From assembly GCA_026874595.1 (NCBI GenBank), contig CM049321.1, positions 26,957,479-27,021,478 on the forward strand: a stretch of 64,000 bases of DNA, read 5' to 3'. The notes beneath the pieces were generated by a model. That model had not been told where the DNA came from. It searched no databases and saw only the letters and a list, made by a program, of their open reading frames with translations. Numbering within the stretch: the first letter of the stretch is position 1; each line of letters opens with the position of its first letter. The DNA is from Sipunculus nudus. Taxonomy: Eukaryota > Annelida > Sipuncula > Golfingiida > Sipunculidae. Below are positions 39,989 to 56,762 of the stretch, piece after piece. The position numbers and the translations under genes were made by a program.

Positions 39989-40270
39989 AAGTCAATAACT
40001 AATAAATATCCCAAATCCAGAAACGACTTCGACAGCGTAAGTAATTCGGATTACACGTTGACTTTAGTTATATATGTTCTTAAATCTTCATCAGAGATCG
40101 CTAACAACGTGAACAACACTGCCACAAGCTCTCCGTATTGGAAAAAAATGTCCAAAGCAAAAGGTAGATTACCTTTTGATCAACATAGATGAAGTGTTAT
40201 TTAAATGCTAATTTTAATTATATGAAAGATTTACGAGCAATAAATGGTTTATCATGTGCGCGCAGAAAAA
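38606..40270. other. intergenic, AT-rich
   Basis: No gene seen. A GTGGCGCCAC word near 38786 recalls the 29.6-kb array unit but stands alone. Confidence 0.5.
39926..39985. repeat. (AT)n microsatellite
   Basis: About 30 uninterrupted AT units. Confidence 0.95.
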
Positions 40271-40277
40271 GTCAGTT

Positions 40278-41815
40278 GAATTATCATGAAGATAACCATA
40301 TGATGTGGGGACCATGGTCTAATGTAGATGGAATTAGTAGAATGACCATGAAGATAATCATATGATGTGGGGACCATGGTCTAATGTAGACAGTATCAGT
40401 TGAATGACAATGAAGATAACCATATGATGTAGGAACCATGGTCTAATGTAGATAGAATTAGTTGAATGACCATGAAGATAACCATATGATGTGGGAACCA
40501 TGGTCTAATGTAGGTAGAATTAGTTGAATGACCATGAAAATAACCATATGATGTGGGACCATGGTCTTATGTAGACAGTATCAGTTGAATGACAATGAAG
40601 ATAACCATATGATGTGGGAACCATGGTCTAATGTAGATAGAATTAGTTGAATGACCATGAAGTTAACCATATGATATGGGGACCATGGTCTTATATAGAT
40701 AGTATTAGTCTAATGACCATGAAGATAACCATATGATGTGGGGACCATGGTCTTATGTAGACAGTATCAGTTGAATGACCATGAAGATAACCATATGATG
40801 TGGGACCATGGTCTTATGTAGACAGTATTAGTTGAATGACCATGAAGTTAACCATATGATGTGGGAATCATGGTCTAATGTAGATAGAATTAGTTGAATG
40901 ACCATGAAGATAACCATATGATGTGGGACCATGGTCTTATGTAGACAGTATCAGTTGAATGACAATGAAGATAACCAAATGATGTGGGAACCATGGTCTA
41001 ATGTAGATAGAATTAGTAGAATGACCATGAAGATAACCATATGATGTGGGGACCATGGTCTTATAAAGATAGTATTAGTCTAATGACCATGAAGATAACC
41101 ATATGATGTGGGGGACCATGGTCTTATGTAGACAGTATCAGTTGTATGACCATGAAGATAACCATATGATGTGGGACCATGGTCTTATGTAGACAATATC
41201 AGTTGAATGACCATGAAGATAACCATATGATGTGGTGACCATGGTCTTATATAGATAGTATTAGTCTAATGACCATGAAGATAACTATATGATGTGGGGA
41301 CCATGGTCTTATGTAGATAGTATCAGTTGAATGACCATGAAGATAACCATATGATGTGGGACAATGGTCTTATGTAGACAGTATTAGTTGAATGACAATG
41401 AAGATAACCATATGATGTGGGGACCATGGTCTTATATAGAGAGTATCAGTTGAATGACCATGAAGATAACCTAATGATGTGGTGACCATGGTCTTATATA
41501 GATAGATTAGTCTAAGGACCATGAAGATAACCATATGATGTGGGGACCATGGTCTTATGTAGACAGTATTAGTTGAATGACCATGAAGTTAACCATATGA
41601 TGTGGGAACCATGGTCTAATGTAGATAGAATTAGTTGAATGACCATGAAGATAACCATATGATATGGGTACCATGGTCTTATGTAGACAGTATTAGTTGA
41701 ATGACCATGAAGTTAACCATATGATGTAGGAACCATGGTCTAATGTAGATAGAATTAGTTGAATGACCATGAAGATAACCATATGATGTGGGGACCATGG
41801 TTTTATGTGGATAGT
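40278..41815 (+). repeat. minisatellite, 62-bp unit, about 25 copies
   Basis: The unit contains ATGACCATGAAGATAACC, ATATGATGTGGGGACC, ATGGTCTTATGTAG and a variable segment before the next ATGAC. The palindrome GACCATGGTC occurs in most copies. The variable segment has at least three classes (ACAGTATCAGTTGA, ATAGAATTAGTTGA and ATAGTATTAGTCTA) that recur in mixed order, which points to multi-unit duplication. Non-coding. Confidence 0.95.
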
Positions 41816-42610
41816 ATAAATGAATGGGTTTTCAGATAGACAGTACAAACAGGATAAACCTTTATTAAACACGCCAAATACTGAGATATTTGAAGGTCAC
41901 AAGCCCTTTGGTTGCTTTTCCACTACTGGACAGTTTCTGCCTTGCGGCAAACGCTTGACAAAACGTGTATATGGAAAAGCGACCTTATTCCTAGTGTGAG
42001 TGGTAAACGTATATCCTGTTTTATTCATTTATATTTTTTGCTTCGCCAGAAGGGTATGCATTCATCCCTGTTTGTGTATGTGTTTGTTCATAACATAACT
42101 CACGCAGTCATGAACCGGATCTCACGAAATTTTTAGGACATTAAGGGAATGGGTCAATGAAAAAGCCATTAGATGTTGGTGTGGATCTGGCACATTTTCT
42201 TATTCAGGAATATCAGGGAATTTTCGCAAATGTACAGTCACTTATACACGAATAAACCTGGGAATAATGGCCGAATAAGTGAATACAAAAACGGGTTCTG
42301 GAGCCTCCCCACATGGGAGAAGGCTTGCATTCCTTAGAATACAGATTTCAAATATGATTGGGTCTCCCTTCCCAGGGGTTGACATGCAGTGGTTTGGTCT
42401 GTCGTCGACTATTATCGCCTTCTGTGCTATTTCCGGTGCAAATAAACGTGCACAGGTGTGTGTGTGTGTGGAGGAGGGGGGGGGGCGCTCCAGTGACGCC
42501 TGTGCTTGGTGGTTGCAGCTTTTAAGGACTGCCCAATCCAACACTGTGGATACCTTAGCGTTCACGGTCTGTTAGACATTGACTCGTTTCTGTATGGCGT
42601 TTACAACAAA
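41816..42610. other. intergenic, no supported gene
   Basis: Overlapping frames of 74 to 107 codons on both strands without splice context. A (GT)n tract followed by G runs lies at about 42455-42485. Confidence 0.45.
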
Positions 42611-45225: not shown

Positions 45226-45230
45226 ACCGC
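45226..45230. repeat. target site duplication, left (ACCGC)
   Basis: ACCGC directly precedes the 5' LTR and is repeated at 51883-51887 directly after the 3' LTR. Five bases is the usual duplication for Gypsy-type integrases. Confidence 0.9.
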
Positions 45231-46312
45231 TGTCACCAGAAATCGGTGACAATATGTACGGTGTTTTGTATCATAGTTTAACGAAGTCTGTTCTCTATTG
45301 ATATTGACGTGAAGCGTCTTCCTAAAGCGTTGACAGGTCTTGATTGTACATATATGAAATCCCATCGGCTATCAGCTGATTTTATCTGTGTCACGCATTG
45401 AGTGTATTAATTCTGGTATGTGGGTCGCCAAGGTGACGCTAGCAGTCAAACCAGGTCACATATAACCTTATATGGGACACTTGAGCCATAAGCCAATCAG
45501 AGAACCGGATCGCCGTATTGTGACGACGATTGTGACGTCAGAGTTCAGGGAGAGACGCTGGAAGCTGCCTTTAGTTGGGTCTTGAAGCTTGAGGTGGCAG
45601 CACGCACGAACGGGAGTAGGAACATTGAAACGCCAGGAACGGCATAGAAGCAAGCTTCTACATGAAGCAAGGACCCAGCTCATAAGAACTCAGCCGTGCT
45701 GCCGAAAGATCTTCGTATTGGCGATATAGAGAGAGCGCGCTCGTCACCTGCCGGCCTAGTTCAGCTTGACCTAGATACATAACCGCCGTAAGCCGAGAAA
45801 CCATTGCTACACGAGCAAGATCAAGGACTCTAAGCTATACGTAAACAAAGACAAGCAAGATCAGTTGAAGATCGCTAAACTCAGAAAGACTAGATCTATA
45901 TGGTACTAACCATACGCTAGATTCTACACTAAACAGTAACCAGAGATCTCTGAAGGAACTGGACTTTATGGTTTTTTTATACAAACCACGGACTCGGTAA
46001 ATATACTGTATTTTTAATGTGAAGGACTGTCGCATTGACACATCAACGCACACACACCTACATCTACGTCTTTGTAAGTATTGTCTTGAATTATATTTGT
46101 GAATTTAACCTGATGTCTCATAGTTTCTATTGATCTGGGTGTATGATTGTCTGGTATTTTTATACACGTCCTTAAAAGAACCTGGAAATGTCACCTGTAA
46201 TGACCGGGATCTAATTTCTTGATTAATGAAATCAAGTGGCGAGCGTTAACCCATCCTATTGTTTTATAGGATATATCCGTTGTAAAGTTTTCATGTTAAG
46301 TTAGGGGTGACA
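45231..46312 (+). repeat. 5' LTR, 1082 bp
   Basis: Matches 50801-51882 in full with 5 substitutions (near 45572, 45710, 45820, 45880 and 46005). Ends TG...CA. The inner edge is followed after 5 bases by the primer-binding sequence. Confidence 0.95.
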
Positions 46313-46317
46313 TTGTA

Positions 46318-46335
46318 TGGCGAGCGTGCCAGGAT
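46318..46335 (+). other. putative tRNA primer-binding site
   Basis: TGGCGAGCGTGCCAGGA begins five bases after the LTR. It starts with TGG, the complement of a tRNA CCA end. I cannot name the primer tRNA without comparison to a tRNA set. Confidence 0.55.
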
Positions 46336-47033
46336 ATAATTAGCCTTAAAAAAACTGGCTAATTACAGTAAGTTTCAGAAGTTTTGAACTGAGAAAACAG
46401 TACTGAAACCAGACATTCATATACTCAAACTAGAGTTGATCTGAATTAATAATTGGAAATGACACCAAACTGATGTTGTAGTGTATACTTGCACAATGAA
46501 ATTACCCCACTGTTAGGAGTTAATATTTATTCAGTGAGAATATTACCTGAGGCACAACATTGTTTCAAGATCGGCATATACCTTGTAGATTTGGCTAGAA
46601 CACATGCATGTTTTGTGAGTAATGCTAGTTCAGTGATACCTGGACATCATTATTGGGTTGATATAAACCCAGATTAGAGTGAAAATTTTTGATGTTGTTA
46701 GATACGCCCTGGTATAATTTTTTCTACACTAGTTTGTGATTGGTCACGTGGTAGGGTCTCTTGACAGGTAAGTTTACCCCTCCCGATTGGCATGGTAATC
46801 ATGGGTGCATGGTGTTTATTGATATCTTGATATCCATCCGTCCATCCGTCTGACCCTTCGTCCGACCTTCCGTCCGTCCGTCCGTATAAGTAGATTTTTT
46901 ATGCGTAGAGCTACCGTAGTGTTATTGTACGGATACCGCCGGTTCGTTAGGTTGGCTTTAACAGTACGTATTTACGGATTTTTAAGAGCGGATATTACTA
47001 GATACTGGAATCTTACTAGGTTAGAGCGTTACC
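46336..47033 (+). other. untranslated leader of the LTR element
   Basis: About 700 bases between the primer site and the Gag start. Contains a tract of repeated CCGTCCGTCCG type at 46844-46886, similar to ACGG microsatellites elsewhere in the window. No open frame of note. Confidence 0.5.
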
Positions 47034-49982
47034 ATGGAAACGTTAGAGTCACTTGTTAGATGCGGACAGGCCTTGGGGCTTAAGGACCAGGCTTTACAAG
47101 ATTATGTTGAGGCTAGACGGCGTGCGGATGAAGAACGTGAGGAAAGAGCCAGGCAACGTGAAATAGAGAAGGAACAGCGGGAATTAGAGCGTGAGCAGCG
47201 GGAATTAGAGCGCGAGCGAGAAGCTAGAGCCCACGAATTAGAGGTTCTAAGGTTAAAGTCTGACTCTGGGGTTAAAGAAGAGAGAAGTAGGGATGTATTC
47301 CCGAAAATCCAGCTTCCACCTTTTGATGAGGCTCACGATCAGCTAGATGCGTTTCTTGAGCGATTTGAACGATTAGCTGTATGTCAAGGCTATGATAGGG
47401 AGAATTGCGCGTTACACCTGAGTCCGTTACTGCGGGGTAAGGCGCTAGGGACTTACACACAGTTATCGGTTAGTGAGGCCATGGATTACGATAAGTTAAA
47501 GATAGCCTTGTTAAAGCGATACCAAATGACCGAAGAGGGTTATCGACACAAGTTTCGGACTTTTAGGCCTGAGCGAGGCGAAACGCCGAGTCAGTTTGCG
47601 GTGAGACTGAGTGGATACCTAGACCATTGGATAGGGATGGCAGGGGTCGGAGGTGACTACGACGGGGTAGTTAACCTGTTGATGTGTGAGCAGTTCGTAA
47701 ACTGCTGTAGTAGGGATCTCTCTATGTTTTTGAAAGAGAGACGGTGTCGTGACTTTGATAGTATGGTAGACTTAGCCGAGAGTTATACGGAGGCTCACGG
47801 TGTACACAGCCTTACAGCAGGTCCTCGTTATGGCAATAATGTGCCGCGTCCAGCGCAACCGGTATCTCAGCCTAGAGAGAAGCGAGAGGTTGAGCGCAGT
47901 CCGGGCGGTCAGACATTTAAGCCATCAGGAGGCATCAGATGTTATTTATGTAATGAACTGGGACATAAGGCGCGGGAATGTAAGACTAGTGCCCGGTCGA
48001 GGCCTAGGTCTTCCCCTCAAGTAGGGCGTGCTGCTGGCGATCAGCAGAGGTATAGGACTAATTTTAGCCCCCCGTATAACCCAAAACAGAAACCGGAGAC
48101 TATGTCAATGGCAGTAGTCGAGGCGGAAACGGAGACAGTCGGTGCGGTGAAACCGGAAGTAGAGAGTCCGAGTCAGTCGTTAGGATTTGCTGCCCAGACA
48201 GAAGGCAGAATCTCGTTACCTGTGTGTGAAGGGCTGGTGAATGGTAAGTCAGCGAGGGTGCTGCGGGATTCGGGATGTTCCTCGGCAGGAATACGTGAGT
48301 CGTACGTGGAGCCGAATCAGTTCACCGGACACCAGGTCGAGTGTAGGTTGTTCGACGGGTCTGTAAGACAATTTCCTACGGCTAGGATTAATGTGGACTG
48401 TGCGTACTTTGTCGGTACTATCGAGGCAATGGTGGTCGGGGATGCTGTATGTGATTTAGCGCTAGGTAACGTAGCGGGAGCGCGTGATCCGTATGATCCG
48501 GACCCGACGTGGAAGTCTGAGCGGTCCTCAGGCATAGTGTGTGACGGTGTAGAGTCACAAAAGGAGGTGTCGTCCGCGGTGGAGACACGGAGCGCTGCAC
48601 GAGAGAAACAGATACCGACGCGTAGCTTGAATGTTGCAAGCCCAGTTGCCGATGTGAGTCCGGCCGAATTTTTGAAGGCGCAGGAGGAGGATGGGTCTTT
48701 AGCGCCGTATTGGAGGCTAGCTAGAGAGGCTAGAAATGATAGTCCATTTAGAATTGAGGACGGATATTTAGTTCGGGTTGTGAGTGATAAACGGGGAGAT
48801 CAAGATGGATCTCGAGTGGTGGTACCTCAGACGTTACGGTACGACGTAATGAGGATGGGCCACGAAGCGGTTATGGCGGGCCATCAGGGCATAGACAAAA
48901 CGCACGACCGCGTGAGAACTCAGTTTTTCTGGAAAGGGATGTATAATGACATTGCTGAGTTTTGCAAGTCCTGTCCCATTTGCCAGAAAACCATACCGAA
49001 AGGCAAGGTGCCTGGAGCTACGTTAGGCCAGATGCCATTAATTGATGAGCCCTGGCGTAGAATTTCGATGGATCTGGTTGGGCCGATCCATCCAGCGTCT
49101 GAGAGAGGTCACAGGTATATTCTGACCGTTATGGATTATGCCACTAGATATCCGGAGGCTGTTGCTTTAAAGAACATAGATACAGTCTCTGTGGCTGATG
49201 CGCTAGTTGATATTTATGCGCGGTTAGGAGTGCCGTCAGAGGTGCTTACTGACATGGGAACACAATTTACGTCAGACCTCATGCGAGAAGTTAGCCGTGT
49301 TTTGTCTGTAAGACAGCTCACCACTACTCCTTACCATCCTATGTGCAACGGAATGGTGGAGAGATTCAATGGAACGTTAAAGTTAATGTTGAAACGGATG
49401 TGCGAGGAAAGACCGCGAGATTGGGATCGGTACCTCAGCGCCGTGCTTTTTGCGTACCGAGAAGCGCCACATGAGAGCACAGGGTTCTCACCCTTTGAGT
49501 TGCTCTATGGTAGGATCGTTAGAGGACCGATGCGGATTCTAAGGGATCTGTGGACCAAGCGAGATACTAGCGTCGAGACTAAAACCACGTACCAATACGT
49601 CCTGGACCTACAAGACAAACTAAGCGACACATGCGCGTTAGCTAGAGAGGCGTTGAACAAATCAGCGAACAGACACAAACTGGTATATGATAGAGGTAAA
49701 TGCACGCGCAGGTTTGAGGCCGGAGACGAAGTTTTGTTGTTACTCCCGACGGAGCGGAACAAATTAATGGTACAGTGGAAAGGCCCCTATACTATTGTAA
49801 ACAGGGTTGGGGACTTAGACTATCGGATTAAGATTGGCGATAAGGTTAAAACCTTCCACGTGAATATGCTGAAACGGTACCATGCTAGAAACGAGCCCCA
49901 GCATATTCTGGCAGCGGTAGCCAAGGGCGCACCTGATTCTATACATGATCCTTACGGTGTAGACGGGGAAACAGAGCACTGA
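47034..49982 (+). CDS. Gag-protease-integrase polyprotein, 982 aa
   Basis: Single open frame starting in context ACCATGG. Residues 27-80 form a highly charged Arg/Glu coiled coil. A Gag capsid-like region (about 90-260) and a CCHC zinc knuckle with C303, C306, H311 and C316 follow. The protease region has the active-site DSG at D412 and ends near a DLALGN strand. The integrase has an HHCC zinc domain (H610, H617, C647, C650), catalytic D680, D740 and E776 (DD35E spacing), and a C-terminal GPY domain (W915-Y919). The frame stops at TGA 49980-49982 soon after FHVNMLKRYH. The product would package RNA, cut the polyprotein and integrate the DNA copy. All key integrase residues are present. Gag to integrase without an RT between them is what identifies the unusual domain order. 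This frame is intact despite the defect downstream. Confidence 0.9.
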   Translation: METLESLVRCGQALGLKDQALQDYVEARRRADEEREERARQREIEKEQRELEREQRELEREREARAHELEVLRLKSDSGVKEERSRDVFPKIQLPPFDEAHDQLDAFLERFERLAVCQGYDRENCALHLSPLLRGKALGTYTQLSVSEAMDYDKLKIALLKRYQMTEEGYRHKFRTFRPERGETPSQFAVRLSGYLDHWIGMAGVGGDYDGVVNLLMCEQFVNCCSRDLSMFLKERRCRDFDSMVDLAESYTEAHGVHSLTAGPRYGNNVPRPAQPVSQPREKREVERSPGGQTFKPSGGIRCYLCNELGHKARECKTSARSRPRSSPQVGRAAGDQQRYRTNFSPPYNPKQKPETMSMAVVEAETETVGAVKPEVESPSQSLGFAAQTEGRISLPVCEGLVNGKSARVLRDSGCSSAGIRESYVEPNQFTGHQVECRLFDGSVRQFPTARINVDCAYFVGTIEAMVVGDAVCDLALGNVAGARDPYDPDPTWKSERSSGIVCDGVESQKEVSSAVETRSAAREKQIPTRSLNVASPVADVSPAEFLKAQEEDGSLAPYWRLAREARNDSPFRIEDGYLVRVVSDKRGDQDGSRVVVPQTLRYDVMRMGHEAVMAGHQGIDKTHDRVRTQFFWKGMYNDIAEFCKSCPICQKTIPKGKVPGATLGQMPLIDEPWRRISMDLVGPIHPASERGHRYILTVMDYATRYPEAVALKNIDTVSVADALVDIYARLGVPSEVLTDMGTQFTSDLMREVSRVLSVRQLTTTPYHPMCNGMVERFNGTLKLMLKRMCEERPRDWDRYLSAVLFAYREAPHESTGFSPFELLYGRIVRGPMRILRDLWTKRDTSVETKTTYQYVLDLQDKLSDTCALAREALNKSANRHKLVYDRGKCTRRFEAGDEVLLLLPTERNKLMVQWKGPYTIVNRVGDLDYRIKIGDKVKTFHVNMLKRYHARNEPQHILAAVAKGAPDSIHDPYGVDGETEH

Positions 49983-49983
49983 T

Positions 49984-50580
49984 AGACCTAAGACAAAGAA
50001 GGCTTTGCGAGCATTCCTAGGTCTTACAGGGTACTATCGGAAATTCGTGCCAAACTATGCGGAAATAGCGGTGCCCTTGACTGATCTAACGCGTAAAGGT
50101 CAACCTAACAAACTAGACTGGAAACCCGTACACGAGAACGCGTACTGTTCTCTAAAGGCTAAACTGTCAGACCCTCCCATACTGAAGCTACCTGATTTCA
50201 GTAAACGATTTTATTTGAAATGTGATGCATCTGATGTGGGTATTGGCTGTATCCTGATGCAAAGACACGAGGGGATCATGCACCCAGTAGCTTATGCCAG
50301 TCGTAAACTATTGCCCAGGGAGAGAAATTACTCCACCATCGAGAAAGAGTCATTAGCAATTGTATGGTCTGTACAGAAATTTGAGATGTACCTGGCTTGT
50401 AGACCGTTCACCATTCAGACCGACCACAAACCATTAAAGTGTACTAGCAAATCAAAATGTGCAAATAAGAGAGTAATGAGATGGGCACTGGTTCTACAAG
50501 AGTTTAGATTTGATATTGAAGCAGTGTCAGGTAAACTAAACCATGGACCTGATTTTCTTAGCAGACTGCCTGAGTGTTAG
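49984..50580 (+). pseudogene. truncated reverse transcriptase (thumb) plus RNase H
   Basis: The reading frame is one phase off from the upstream polyprotein. It opens with PKTKKALRAFLGLTGYYRKF, the thumb/connection motif found after the palm in Gypsy reverse transcriptases. It continues through the RNase H domain: CDASDVGIG (first catalytic Asp near 50224), ERNYSTIEKESLAIVW, TDHKPL (Asp at 50422) and HGPDFLSRL, to a TAG at 50578-50580. No normal ATG start exists for it. The fingers and palm, roughly 250 residues or more in relatives, are missing, so no polymerase activity is expected. The break lies at about 49975-49990. Confidence 0.85.
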
Positions 50581-50785
50581 GATGTAATGAGCTATAACGT
50601 TTAGCCAGTTAAGTCTAAACATGTACAAGATTTTGCCCTGTGTCATAGACCGTGGGCATGTACTAATGACAACTTGTTACATGACCCTTATGTATTGCTA
50701 TGTATTGCTACATGTAAATATGTTTAGCTGGACCCTGTAAGATAGAACGATACGATGTATCGAGAAAATACTGTGTATTTTCCTT

Positions 50786-50797
50786 AAAAGGAGGGGG
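50786..50797 (+). other. polypurine tract
   Basis: AAAAGGAGGGGG, three bases before the 3' LTR. It primes plus-strand DNA synthesis in this class of element. Confidence 0.8.
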
Positions 50798-50800
50798 TGA

Positions 50801-51882
50801 TGTCACCAGAAATCGGTGACAATATGTACGGTGTTTTGTATCATAGTTTAACGAAGTCTGTTCTCTATTGATATTGACGTGAAGCGTCTTCCTAAAGCGT
50901 TGACAGGTCTTGATTGTACATATATGAAATCCCATCGGCTATCAGCTGATTTTATCTGTGTCACGCATTGAGTGTATTAATTCTGGTATGTGGGTCGCCA
51001 AGGTGACGCTAGCAGTCAAACCAGGTCACATATAACCTTATATGGGACACTTGAGCCATAAGCCAATCAGAGAACCGGATCGCCGTATTGTGACGACGAT
51101 TGTGACGTCAGAGTTCAGGGAGAGACGCTGGAAGCTGCCTTCAGTTGGGTCTTGAAGCTTGAGGTGGCAGCACGCACGAACGGGAGTAGGAACATTGAAA
51201 CGCCAGGAACGGCATAGAAGCAAGCTTCTACATGAAGCAAGGACCCAGCTCATAAGAACTCAGCCGTGCTGCCGAAAGAGCTTCGTATTGGCGATATAGA
51301 GAGAGCGCGCTCGTCACCTGCCGGCCTAGTTCAGCTTGACCTAGATACATAACCGCCGTAAGCCGAGAAACCATTGCTACACGAGCAAGGTCAAGGACTC
51401 TAAGCTATACGTAAACAAAGACAAGCAAGATCAGTTGAAGATCGCTAAATTCAGAAAGACTAGATCTATATGGTACTAACCATACGCTAGATTCTACACT
51501 AAACAGTAACCAGAGATCTCTGAAGGAACTGGACTTTATGGTTTTTTTATACAAACCACGGACTCGGTAAATATCCTGTATTTTTAATGTGAAGGACTGT
51601 CGCATTGACACATCAACGCACACACACCTACATCTACGTCTTTGTAAGTATTGTCTTGAATTATATTTGTGAATTTAACCTGATGTCTCATAGTTTCTAT
51701 TGATCTGGGTGTATGATTGTCTGGTATTTTTATACACGTCCTTAAAAGAACCTGGAAATGTCACCTGTAATGACCGGGATCTAATTTCTTGATTAATGAA
51801 ATCAAGTGGCGAGCGTTAACCCATCCTATTGTTTTATAGGATATATCCGTTGTAAAGTTTTCATGTTAAGTTAGGGGTGACA
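50801..51882 (+). repeat. 3' LTR, 1082 bp
   Basis: Same length as the 5' LTR and almost identical; no indel was seen in a base-by-base reading. Confidence 0.95.
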
Positions 51883-51887
51883 ACCGC
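51883..51887. repeat. target site duplication, right (ACCGC)
   Basis: Direct repeat of 45226-45230. Confidence 0.9.
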
Positions 51888-52372: not shown

Positions 52373-52527
52373 GAACAACGAACGCTGTGTTTCTACATAT
52401 CATGGTTCACACGTGGGCCTGCCCGGCTCGGCCAGGCGATGCTATCATGCTACCATCAACGGACAATGCTAGCGCTGCACATACACATGTGAACCTGCTG
52501 CATACAATAAAAGAGACATCTGTAACA
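52373..52527 (-). repeat. LTR start of the minus-strand element (3' copy)
   Basis: The reverse complement starts TGTTACAGATGTC right after GGAGGGGGAATGGAG, a good polypurine tract. It aligns over its whole length with the LTR read downward from 56762. The LTR continues to lower coordinates for an unknown distance. Confidence 0.75.
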
Positions 52528-52667
52528 CTCCATTCCCCCTCCAGTAAGAAAAAAGAAAGTTTTCTCAAAACTTTCTTTTTTTGCGATCGCAATCACTAAA
52601 TCTTTAGAATATTTAAAAAACATCTTATTTACAACATTACATAAACATCTCGTTTACAACATTTCAT

Positions 52668-53329
52668 AAACATCTCGATAGGCAATCAGCGAGTACATTG
52701 TCTTTCCCTTTAATGTGTTTGATTTTAAGGTTGTAATCCTGTAAAAAGAAACTCCATCTAAACAATCTTTGACTTTTACACTTCAACTTGTCCATGAACG
52801 TTAGTGGATTGTGATCACTGAAGACAATGATAGGCCTGACTGATCAAGTAACATAAACTTCAAAATGTTGCAATGCCAAAATCAAAGCCAAACATTCTTT
52901 TTTCAGAGTGGAGTAGTTTTCCTGGTTTGTATTAAACTTTCTTGATAAATAACGACTTGGATGATCTATGCCATCATCGCCTTCTTGTAACAACACAGCG
53001 CTAGCAGCAGTATCACTAGCATCTACAGCTAACTTAAAAGATACAGAAAAGTCTTGAGCTACTAAAACTGGTGAACTTTGCAGAATTGCTTTCAAATTCT
53101 GAAATGCAATTTCGGACTGAACATTCCATACAAACTTATGTTTCTTCTTCAACAAATTAGTCAAAGGTTCAGCTACAGCAGAAAAATTTGGACAAAACTT
53201 CCTGTAGTTTCCAACCTTACCAAGAAAACGCATTATTTGCTTTTTGTTTTTTGGTCTAGGAAATGCCGAAATAGCACTTATTTTACCTTCAACAGGTTTT
53301 ACTTGACCCTGCCCTACAATATTACTCAA
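52668..53329 (-). pseudogene. RT thumb and RNase H of the minus-strand element
   Basis: The frame contains FPRPKNKKQIMRFLGKVGNY, then VDASDTAASAVLLQEG, NYSTLKKECLALILALQHFE, a stop, and then FSDHNPLTF and NVLADCLSR near 52680. These are the RNase H catalytic boxes in order. One in-frame stop (near 52844) interrupts it. Confidence 0.8.
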
Positions 53330-54105
53330 AATGTTACTTGTGCATGACTAAACTCAGATTTTACTAAGTTTATGAGTCTTTCAAAGAGGTCCCGAAGAAT
53401 TTGCAGATGTTTCTCCCAGGTGTCGCTGTACACGATAAGGTCATCAGTATATGCGTCGCAGCCCTGAATGTCCTTGACAACCGGATGGATTAGGCGCTGG
53501 AACGTGGCTGGCAAGTTCTTCATGCCAAACAGCATAATTTTATACTGGTACAGTGCTTACGGCGTCACAAATGCGGATTCTTCTTTTTCTCGTTCTGTCA
53601 GCGGAACTTGCCAGAATCCTTTTGGCATGTCGAACTTGGAAACATAACTTGAGCTACCGACTCTATCAACACAATCATCGATCCTCGGAATCGGGAACGT
53701 GTTAGTCTTGGAGACAGAGTTCAGTTTTCGATAAGCTGTGCACATACGGTAACTTCCATCAGGTTTTGGCACCAGAATGCATGGTGAACTTCAGTTACTG
53801 TTACTAGGTTCAATAAAATCATTGTCCAGCAAATATTGAATCTCATCCTGTAGATACTTTTGCTTTTCTGGAATCAGCCTATAGGGAGGCTACTTGACTG
53901 CTCTTGCCTCGCAAACATCCACGTCATGGCACAATATGTTAGTTCGCGTTGGAATGTCAATAAACAAATGTTCATAATTCCGCAGCAGGTTCTTGAGGTC
54001 TTTTTGTTGTTGTGCGGTAAGGTGTGACAGTTTGGCATCCAGGTTGTTAAGCACGTCTGAGTTTTTTAGTGGTACTGTTCCACACTGAATGTCTACATCA
54101 CACAA
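53330..54105 (-). pseudogene. reverse transcriptase fingers and palm of the minus-strand element
   Basis: Three frame pieces give, in order, an RT leader (53890-54105), the fingers/palm (53557-53772: PKPDGSYRMCTAYRKLNSV, FPIPRIDDCVDRVG) and the active-site box AYTDDLIVYSD (53326-53535), here YTDD. Relatives usually have a hydrophobic second residue; Thr is probably decay. Frameshifts and stops separate the pieces. This is the module that the intact neighbour lacks. Confidence 0.8.
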
Positions 54106-54199
54106 TCAGTATCAACTTTAACTGGCTCAGGGTCAGTTTTTACACAATTAACAGCAGTAACATTATGTACAACATCTGATGTGCTATTTCTGTCATAAT

Positions 54200-55300
54200 A
54201 TGGTTTCAACATGTTAACATGGCACAGTTGTTTTTTCTTACGCCTATCTGGTGTTATTTTATGTAATTTAAATCACTGACTTTCTTGTCAACAATGTAAG
54301 GACCAAAATACCTAGCTTGCAGAGGTCTGCCAGGGATAGGTAGTAAAGCAAGGACCTTTTCACCATGCTCAAACGTCCTACTTACAGCGTGCTTGTCATA
54401 ATTTGTTTTCATTTTACTTTTTGCAGATTTTAGATTTGACTTTGTAATCTCACAAGCATTGTGTAGTTTAGTGCGAAAGTCTGAGACAGACTCAAACTAA
54501 GAGAATCAGGATTTTCACACAAGAGTTTTTCTTTAAGCAGTTTTAATGGACCGCGAACTGAGTGTCCGAAAATTAGTTCAAAGGGACTGAAACCCAATGA
54601 CTTTTGAAAGGATTAGGTGGATTCCTTCATCCGAGTCTTTCTGTGTGTCATAACAATAAGTCCTAATCATGTTTTTTAATATCTGTTGAAAACGCTCGAG
54701 GGCGCCCTGACTTTCAGGATGGTATGGCGAAGAGTCCAAAAGAATCCCAAAGTTGTAAAAAAAACTTGGTCAGAGCCTTGACAACACTTTAGCATTAATT
54801 TTGCGCTGTGGTATTGCCTCAGGGAACCTGGTAGATGCGCACATAATTGTCAACAAGTATTCATGTCCAGATTTTGTTTTGGGCGTTGGTCCAACACAGT
54901 CAACAATAATCCTACTAAATGGTTCCTCGAAAGCAGGAATAGGCCTAAGTGGGGTTTAAGGAGAATTCTGATTGGGCTTGCCTACCATCTGGCATGTGTG
55001 GCATGATTTACAATATTGTACAATATCTTTCCTGAGGTTAGGCCAATAGAAGTGTGTACTTACTTTCTGATAAGTTTTTATTTATACCTAAGCCAGACAA
55101 AGGAGCCTCATGTGCCGTGCTTAGAATTTCATTGCGATAACTTTTGGGCATTACTATTTGATGTTTGATGGCCCACTCATCATCGGCGCATACATCAAGT
55201 GGTCGCCAATTACTCATAAGCACTCCATTTTTAACATAAAAACAAACTGGGTTTTGTGACAGTTCATCTTTAGAAACTGCCCTTGGAAACAAAAATGAAA
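54200..55300 (-). pseudogene. integrase of the minus-strand element
   Basis: The zinc-binding part is in 55292-55000 (CFYVKNGVLMSNWRP, then CKSCHTCQ). The core follows with several stops: IIVDCVGP (first Asp), PYHPESQGALERFQQ (catalytic Glu), then FGPYIVDKKV and HVNMLKPYY of the GPY domain near 54350-54200. The segment with the second catalytic Asp appears deleted or scrambled. It lies between protease and reverse transcriptase. Confidence 0.75.
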
Positions 55301-55950
55301 TATCAGGGTCCTATCATGTTCCGCGATAAGTTCTGACCTTGAAAATGCTGCTTCCAGTACGGGCGAGTCGTTAGACGAGTCACTAGTGACTCCCAGAGTT
55401 TTATAATCTGGACCATTCTCCTCATGTGTGATTTTCTTGGCCATAGATCTAGTTACAGCACATGAAGGATACAAACCAGGAATTTCCTGACTATCAGGAT
55501 CAGTGTCCTGATCAAGTGACGGCTTTTCTGACACTATTGGTACAGGCTGTACTTTGTCACCTGCGACATCATTGCCTAGTAGCAACTGAATTCCCTTAAA
55601 GGGTAAAGTAGTTCTTATGCCCACAGTAATATTCCCAGAAATCAAATCTGACTTGAAATGGATACTGTGAAGCGGAACTGAGGTGTGCTTGTCTGGAAAC
55701 ACACCATTAACAACTGCATGTGCACCAGTAAAAGACCTATGAGAAAATGGCAAAGTGTTTGCTTACGTGAGAGTTTAGCCTGAACTAGTGTCCCTAAAAT
55801 TCTTTTAGGGATAGAATCTGAAAAATCACTTGAAAGTGATACAAAACCATCATGTATGATTGGCTCAAATAACTCCTTTTCAGAGTCAGGAGAGGAATCT
55901 ACTACCTTAGTTTCGTCAAACAAAGAACTTACACTGATAGTGTCAGTCAT
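55214..55950 (-). pseudogene. protease region of the minus-strand element
   Basis: Two frames (55950-55642 and 55753-55214) joined by a frameshift. Includes IQLLLGNDVAGDK, the C-terminal strand of the aspartic protease, followed by a linker with CAVTRSMAKK. The N-terminal DSG/DTG active-site part and Gag are absent, being replaced by the inverted end segment beginning near 55963. Confidence 0.7.
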
Positions 55951-55962
55951 AAACTCGTGTGA

Positions 55963-56348
55963 AAATGTATTTCAGAATTTGAAAGCAATTCTGCAAAGTT
56001 CACCAGTTTTAATAGCTCCAGACTTTTCTGTACCTTTAAAGTTAGCTGTAGATGCTAGGGACACTGCTGCTTATGCTGTGTTGTTACAAGAAGGCTTGAT
56101 GGCATAGATCATCCAATTTGGTATTTATCAAGAAAGTTTAATGCAAACCAGAAAGACTACTCCACTATGGAAAAAGAATGTTTGGCTTTGATTTTGGCAT
56201 TGCAACATCTTGAAGTTTATATTACTTCATCAGTCAAGCCTATCATTGTCTTCAGTGATCACAATCCCCTCACGTTCATGAACAAGTTGAAGTGTAAAAA
56301 TCAAAGATTGTTGAGATGGAGTTTGTTTTTACAGGCTTACAACCTTTA
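55963..56348 (+). pseudogene. inverted second copy of the RNase H end
   Basis: On the plus strand, FQNLKAILQSSPVL, KLAVDARDTAAYAVLLQEG, EKECLALILALQHLEVYIT and FSDHNPLTF repeat the sequence of the minus-strand RNase H (52668-53110), with a frame break near 56094. The copy starts abruptly inside the RT thumb/RNase H linker, which marks the rearrangement breakpoint. Confidence 0.8.
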
Positions 56349-56524
56349 AATCAAACACATTAAAGGGAAAGACAATATACTCCCTGATTGCTTATCGAGA
56401 TGTTTATGAAATGCTGTAAACGAGATGTTTATGTAATGTTGTAAATATGATGTTTTTTAAATATTGTAAAGATTTAGTGATTGCGATCGCAAAAAGAAAG
56501 TTTTTTACAGGAGAGGGAGTGGAG

Positions 56525-56762
56525 TGTTACAGATGTCTCTTTTATTGTATGCAGCAGTCTTTCATATGTATGTGCAGCGTTAGCATTGTCCGTTCCCATA
56601 GCAGTATCGCCTGGCCGAGAACAACGAACGCTGTCACATATCAGGGTTCACACGTGGGCCGGCCCGGCTAAGCCAGGCAATGCTGCCATGGCAACGGACA
56701 ATGCTAGCCTTGCACATACACATGTAAGACTGTTGCATACAATAAAACAGACATCTGTAACA
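56525..56762. repeat. palindromic LTR junction, 238 bp
   Basis: 56525-56619 reads as the LTR start in plus orientation. 56620-56762 reads as the same LTR start in minus orientation, ending ACATCTGTAACA. The two arms pair over about 95 bases with modest mismatch. This joins LTR position 95 of one orientation to about position 143 of the other. It can be mistaken for a short LTR or a MITE because both ends are TGTTACAGATGTC-type. Confidence 0.75.

Follow-up and report, generated by a model that had tools for sequence, protein, structure and literature searches.

The window analysed here is a stretch of 64,000 nucleotides of the Sipunculus nudus genome (GenBank assembly GCA_026874595.1, contig CM049321.1, positions 26,957,479 to 27,021,478), which holds at 45231-51882 a 6652-bp long terminal repeat (LTR) retrotransposon. 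We are confident that this element belongs to a young family of Gmr1-like Ty3/gypsy retrotransposons that is mobilised in trans and from which the core of the reverse transcriptase (RT) has been deleted. A complete relative very probably copies it. An RT-bearing sibling and a derivative that lacks 887 nt between 7-nt repeats are both numerous in the genome, and the two are near-identical where compared.

The LTRs of the element (45231-46312, 1082 bp, TGTCACC...GGGTGACA; and 50801-51882; both plus strand) differ at 5 of 1082 aligned sites, and ACCGC is duplicated at both element ends (45226-45230 and 51883-51887), as an earlier note on this DNA had stated. Gag, a protease region and integrase lie in one frame, open reading frame 1 (ORF1; 47034-49982, plus strand, 982 amino acids), which ends a few codons beyond the deletion junction (49971-49977, plus strand, 7-nt microhomology). 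A second plus-strand frame (49963-50580), +1 relative to ORF1 and overlapping its stop end by 20 nt (49963-49982), encodes the RT thumb from 49984 and then RNase H.

That the fingers and palm of the RT are gone, also claimed in that note, is borne out. A Pfam scan gives no RVT_1 match in ORF1 or in the second frame, whose matches (from 49984) are to RT_RNaseH families only and whose alignment with Ty3 RT (4ol8) begins only at residue 284 of 478. The distance of about 30 bases given there from integrase C-terminus to thumb holds for the open frame but not for the domains: the Pfam-recognised integrase ends near 49883, about 100 nt before the thumb. The RVT_1 scan does detect RT where it is present, since two pieces of a degenerate minus-strand neighbour match that model at 3.4e-09 and 4e-10. 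A location of the RT elsewhere in the element was considered and rejected, the neighbour's RT pieces finding nothing in the element better than an E-value of about 1.

The same junction is found at many other loci. With up to 3 mismatches allowed, a 37-mer across it matches the 1.43-Gb genome at 194 places, and the reversed control at none. The 201-bp junction region is matched over its full length at 99-100% identity in the best 40 of 512 candidates, window included, when these are ordered by similarity to the window copy. From the 39 other scored places we fetched 20 copies on seven contigs, and the exact junction is present in all 20. A deletion private to the window copy and made after insertion, or an erroneous assembly gap closure, would look no different at a single locus; the junction shared by 194 places excludes both, and we give this explanation practically no chance.

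Full-length relatives are present as well. In a protein search with the thumb and RNase H, the best 150 of 7760 candidates are 98-100% identical; 84 of these lie in open frames of at most 205 codons, 64 in frames of more than 220 and 2 between, with frames of at least 1460 codons in 28 of the 150 matches scored. A 37-mer for the undeleted left edge of the RT-bearing form occurs at 145 places (control 0). The RT-less form is thus the commoner of the two (194 versus 145 places, arrays included).

In all eight RT-bearing copies for which a 1.3-kb piece from integrase tail to thumb was read, the frame is open throughout. In L059, the only one scanned, the integrase SH3 domain is followed by RVT_1 (7.7e-32), and RT lies between integrase and RNase H in a single frame in this sibling. 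The 887-nt difference is out of frame and the same in all eight copies; the junction homology is 7 nt in seven and 3 nt in L060. Homology of at least 7 nt is met in only 8 of 33000 nearby end pairs, a number equal to that of the equivalent placements of the junction. A single precise excision in the fetched copies is also what a spliced intron would leave, the RT-less copies then being retrocopies of spliced RNA. However, GT..AG, GC..AG or AT..AC ends are found at none of the eight equivalent placements in one RT-bearing copy, and the missing segment encodes RT, which makes splicing a very improbable origin. RT-bearing copies also occur in groups spaced at about 9.9 kb. A search for a Trp-Pro codon pair guessed to lie next to the thumb gave no match, a result that is uninformative because RT-bearing siblings exist.

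Both LTRs are present in 17 of the 20 fetched RT-less copies and differ by 0-0.52% (44 of 19240 sites), with no difference at all in three. The description 'very young' suits the window copy by its 5 differences in 1082 sites, but only in relative terms: in just one of these 17 copies do the LTRs differ as much or more, which places the window copy among the more diverged. Exact 5-bp target duplications flank 12 of the 17, and 11 of them are different. Spread of the RT-less copies by segmental or tandem duplication only would account for the regularly spaced groups on contigs C7, C4, C16, C3 and C11 but not for these varied target duplications, and we consider such a history extremely unlikely.

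Some copies, RT-bearing ones among them, form regularly spaced groups (C16:33369210-33386607, C11:69790664-69796790, C7:13623663-13665397 and C14:21393724-21433442) and are probably segmental or tandem duplicates. Regular spacings among RT-less groups are about 5.6 kb or 10.4 kb, and the former, equal to one LTR plus the internal region, probably reflects tandems that share LTRs. At L026 (C4:11117069-11124969) two RT-less internal regions are fused with no intervening LTR, and the second begins inside the leader.

Variation among copies indicates how the family has multiplied. For variant analyses we used 19 copies (18 in some pieces): the 20 fetched, minus L016, taken as a segmental twin of L015, and the tandem L026, plus the window copy. 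Comparison with the RT-bearing form covers gag-to-integrase pieces, the integrase tail and thumb/RNase H. Site 49953 lies 17-24 nt upstream of the breakpoint; of 19 RT-less copies 9 have T there, against none of 26 RT-bearing ones (Fisher p = 0.0001). The 26, all with G, are the first eight and the 18 readable among 20 further copies classed as RT-bearing by their long open frames; the other two failed to align where expected and were dropped. Five of the nine carriers of T, the window copy included, have different exact, non-repetitive target duplications. Because T is confined to the RT-less copies in this sample, there is statistical evidence that RT-less templates have been copied onward as RT-less.

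The competing possibility is that RNA of the RT-bearing form drops these 887 nt at the 7-nt repeat again and again while it is being copied, and that each RT-less insertion is a dead end. The position of the junction at a short repeat suits it, as do four sites variable in both forms and the lack of any fixed difference between three RT-bearing and 19 RT-less copies over about 2.4 kb. But the T at 49953 and a frequency difference at 49678 (4 of 19 RT-less versus 6 of 8 RT-bearing, p = 0.025) mean that the RT-less copies have a shared history of their own, and RT-less places exceed RT-bearing ones; recurrent deletion is therefore unlikely. The deleted form copied in trans by a full-length relative, one of the two cases the earlier note had offered, is supported both by the junction at 194 places and by the RT-bearing sibling.

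The two forms appear to exchange alleles. The sites with both alleles in both forms are 47132, 47150 and 48308 (three RT-bearing copies) and 49678 (eight), which suggests recombination and, if exchange between the forms has occurred, shared particles. The integrase tail and the 57 nt after the junction likewise show no fixed difference (8 versus 19 copies), and at 19 sites within the 2.4 kb an RT-bearing copy shows an allele that is absent from the RT-less sample. The Gag coil (window 47120-47260) has length alleles of 0, -21, -42 and +12 nt in RT-less copies, all in-frame; alleles 0 and -21 also occur in the three RT-bearing copies read, and long-frame lengths of 1480, 1473, 1484 and 1466 are those that the four RT-less coil alleles predict by arithmetic. 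Of the 1711 pairs of shared sites in the RT-less copies, 805 fail the four-gamete test, and distances measured in the LTRs show no correlation with those in integrase (means 4.3% and 0.87%; all 21 copies; r = -0.11). Recombination within the family is the simplest reading, and has been reported for Onsen in Arabidopsis (PMC5668417).

Several observations weigh against a trans-mobilised family, or limit what can be said of it. Five of the 17 copies with both LTRs have no exact duplication, and one of these, L023, continues into a second internal region. Arrays hold some of the copies, such as that at C7 13.62-13.67 Mb with its 10.4-kb spacing, and the 194 and 145 places therefore overstate the number of insertions. 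RT-less copies were sampled in order of similarity to the window copy; the frequency of T at 49953 is hence not a genome-wide one, a bias that bears on frequency and not on presence versus absence. Recurrent change is easy in the repetitive coil-coding stretch that contains sites 47132 and 47150, and for copies with G at 49953 recurrent deletion could explain the allele sharing. The apparent youth of the RT-bearing form is judged from its open frames, and genome sequence is what the reading of probable trans-mobilisation is drawn from.

The trans-mobilised family would have arisen as follows. A single event presumably made the deletion, probably a template switch from one short repeat to the other in the course of reverse transcription. 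The RT-less RNA, retaining LTRs, leader and packaging signals, would enter particles that hold the sibling's RT, be reverse-transcribed there and then be integrated. Exchange between the RNAs of the two forms would have mixed their alleles.

Whether the retained proteins matter is a separate question. The earlier note foresaw a non-autonomous family that still carries Gag and integrase; both are retained, but only 6 of 19 copies have an ORF1 free of interruptions, and in 13 it is broken (a set that includes the window copy, L015 and L016 and omits L012 and L026). Variants found in at least two RT-less copies comprise 11 amino-acid-changing and 16 silent, while singletons comprise 160 and 76. 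Shared variants are thus poorer in amino-acid changes than singletons (p = 0.009; ORF1 alone, p = 0.027), and no stop or frameshift is common to several copies, the presumed segmental twins L015 and L016 aside. This is no more than suggestive of selection on the coding frames while the RT-less family spread.

Through recombination, shared variants may instead derive from the RT-bearing form, of which three copies at most span the greater part of ORF1. Moreover, singletons amount to 0.30-0.38% per copy in the coding pieces, more than the approximately 0.11% expected after insertion (half the mean LTR-pair divergence). Singletons must then be partly inherited, and the contrast is one of older with younger variants rather than strictly of changes before and after insertion, which weighs against a strong claim of selection. 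The small number of intact ORF1 copies, and a frameshift in L017 although its LTRs are identical, indicate that broken copies may also move. Under a simple neutral model an open frame at the age of the window copy is not unlikely, so open frames alone prove little.

A bolder proposal, which we hold only tentatively and think rather doubtful, is that the RT-less form is half of a two-part element. It would supply Gag, protease and integrase and the RT-bearing form would supply RT, with the frame kept by selection and alleles exchanged as in a segmented replicon. An element with a single frame would yield Gag and RT at 1:1; the deletion would redress that ratio and so do the job of BARE1's spliced Gag-only RNA.

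The element belongs by several features with Ty3/gypsy (Metaviridae-type) retrotransposons. The LTRs have TG..CA ends and a short target duplication, and the closest solved structures are those of Ty3: integrase 7q5b (1.4e-25) and RNase H 4ol8 (4.4e-21). A leader (46313-47033, plus strand) follows the 5' LTR, with a likely primer-binding site near 46318, for which no tRNA matched. Along the plus strand ORF1 has a coiled-coil-like Gag start, a SCAN-like region (47535-47798; PF02023, 8.8e-08, above cut-off), a CCHC knuckle (47937-47984), a putative protease region (48192-48701), and integrase H2C2 (48822-48992), core (49050-49340) and SH3 (49746-49883) domains. The protease region has no Pfam match in ORF1, and its visible D-S-G is probably the protease motif. 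The integrase aligns with those of Ty3 and prototype foamy virus (PFV), and matches the three acidic, catalytic residues of the PFV active site. A 3' untranslated stretch (50581-50800, plus strand) carries directly before the 3' LTR what we label, by inference, a purine-rich tract.

Integrase lies upstream of thumb/RNase H in the window and of RVT_1 in L059. This order and the SCAN-like Gag indicate, on domain evidence, a Gmr1-like Ty3/gypsy element, a group for which Goodwin and Poulter 2002 is cited. The earlier note foresaw neither this copia-like order, with the Gmr1-like affinity to which it points, nor the excess of the deleted form over the complete one. In the parts of the sources consulted, integrase before RT together with SCAN-like Gag is the Gmr1-like signature (PMC6238403, PMC8220671, PMC4131045, PMC4592553), and a SCAN-like capsid region is linked to Gmr1 Gag (PMC4592553). 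Unlike the present family, no RT-less high-copy derivative is mentioned in those parts of PMC6238403, PMC4131045 and PMC8220671, and none of Gmr1-like type was seen in literature searches.

Many insertions here share one disabling deletion, as in a trans-copied non-autonomous LTR family, and the candidate partner is 98-100% identical in thumb/RNase H, with no fixed gag-to-integrase difference in the pieces compared. Non-autonomous LTR elements copied in trans include those of the TR-GAG, LARD, TRIM and ETn types, which generally lack all or nearly all of pol, whereas the window family retains sequence for protease, integrase and RNase H. By analogy the nearest functional parallel is the mouse intracisternal A-particle (IAP) IΔ1, described in PMC6466679 as internally deleted, trans-mobilised and the source of most new IAP insertion mutations. 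Both have a single internal deletion in a young LTR element, complete relatives that mobilise them in trans (as we infer for the window family), great success despite the loss and a protein of their own, that of IΔ1 being reported to act in cis (PMC6466679). In IΔ1, of a different clade, the deletion took 1.9 kb of gag and pol, and the product is a Gag-Pol fusion, whereas the window family keeps Gag, protease region and integrase and has lost 887 nt of RT. BARE2 of barley (PMC3735527) is likewise a defective subfamily that relies on an autonomous relative for packaging, as the window family probably does, but is its mirror case: BARE2 cannot make Gag, and the window family keeps Gag and loses RT.

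Other features of the window are as follows. The neighbour at 52458-56594 on the minus strand is a degenerate second Ty3-type element, with integrase also upstream of RT; copies of its RNase H end flank it as inverted arms (52567-52976 and 56097-56506, 92%). Its RT family is very large in the genome, with 5241 first-look candidates, the best 150 all at least 81% identical over 77 amino acids; these 150 are close to the neighbour and were not used to find the RT-bearing partner. A tandem array of at least 24 copies of a unit of about 62 bp occupies 40264-41904. No RNA families or tRNAs were found in the window, nor relatives of the element in scans of viral contigs.

A natural two-form retrotransposon population has apparently been caught early here, in which parent and derivative, each abundant, are near-identical in the parts compared and apparently trade alleles. 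Why deleted LTR elements such as IAP IΔ1, ETn and BARE2 can equal or outdo complete ones could be tested in this family from sequence alone, and so could the question of whether the proteins that deleted elements retain matter.

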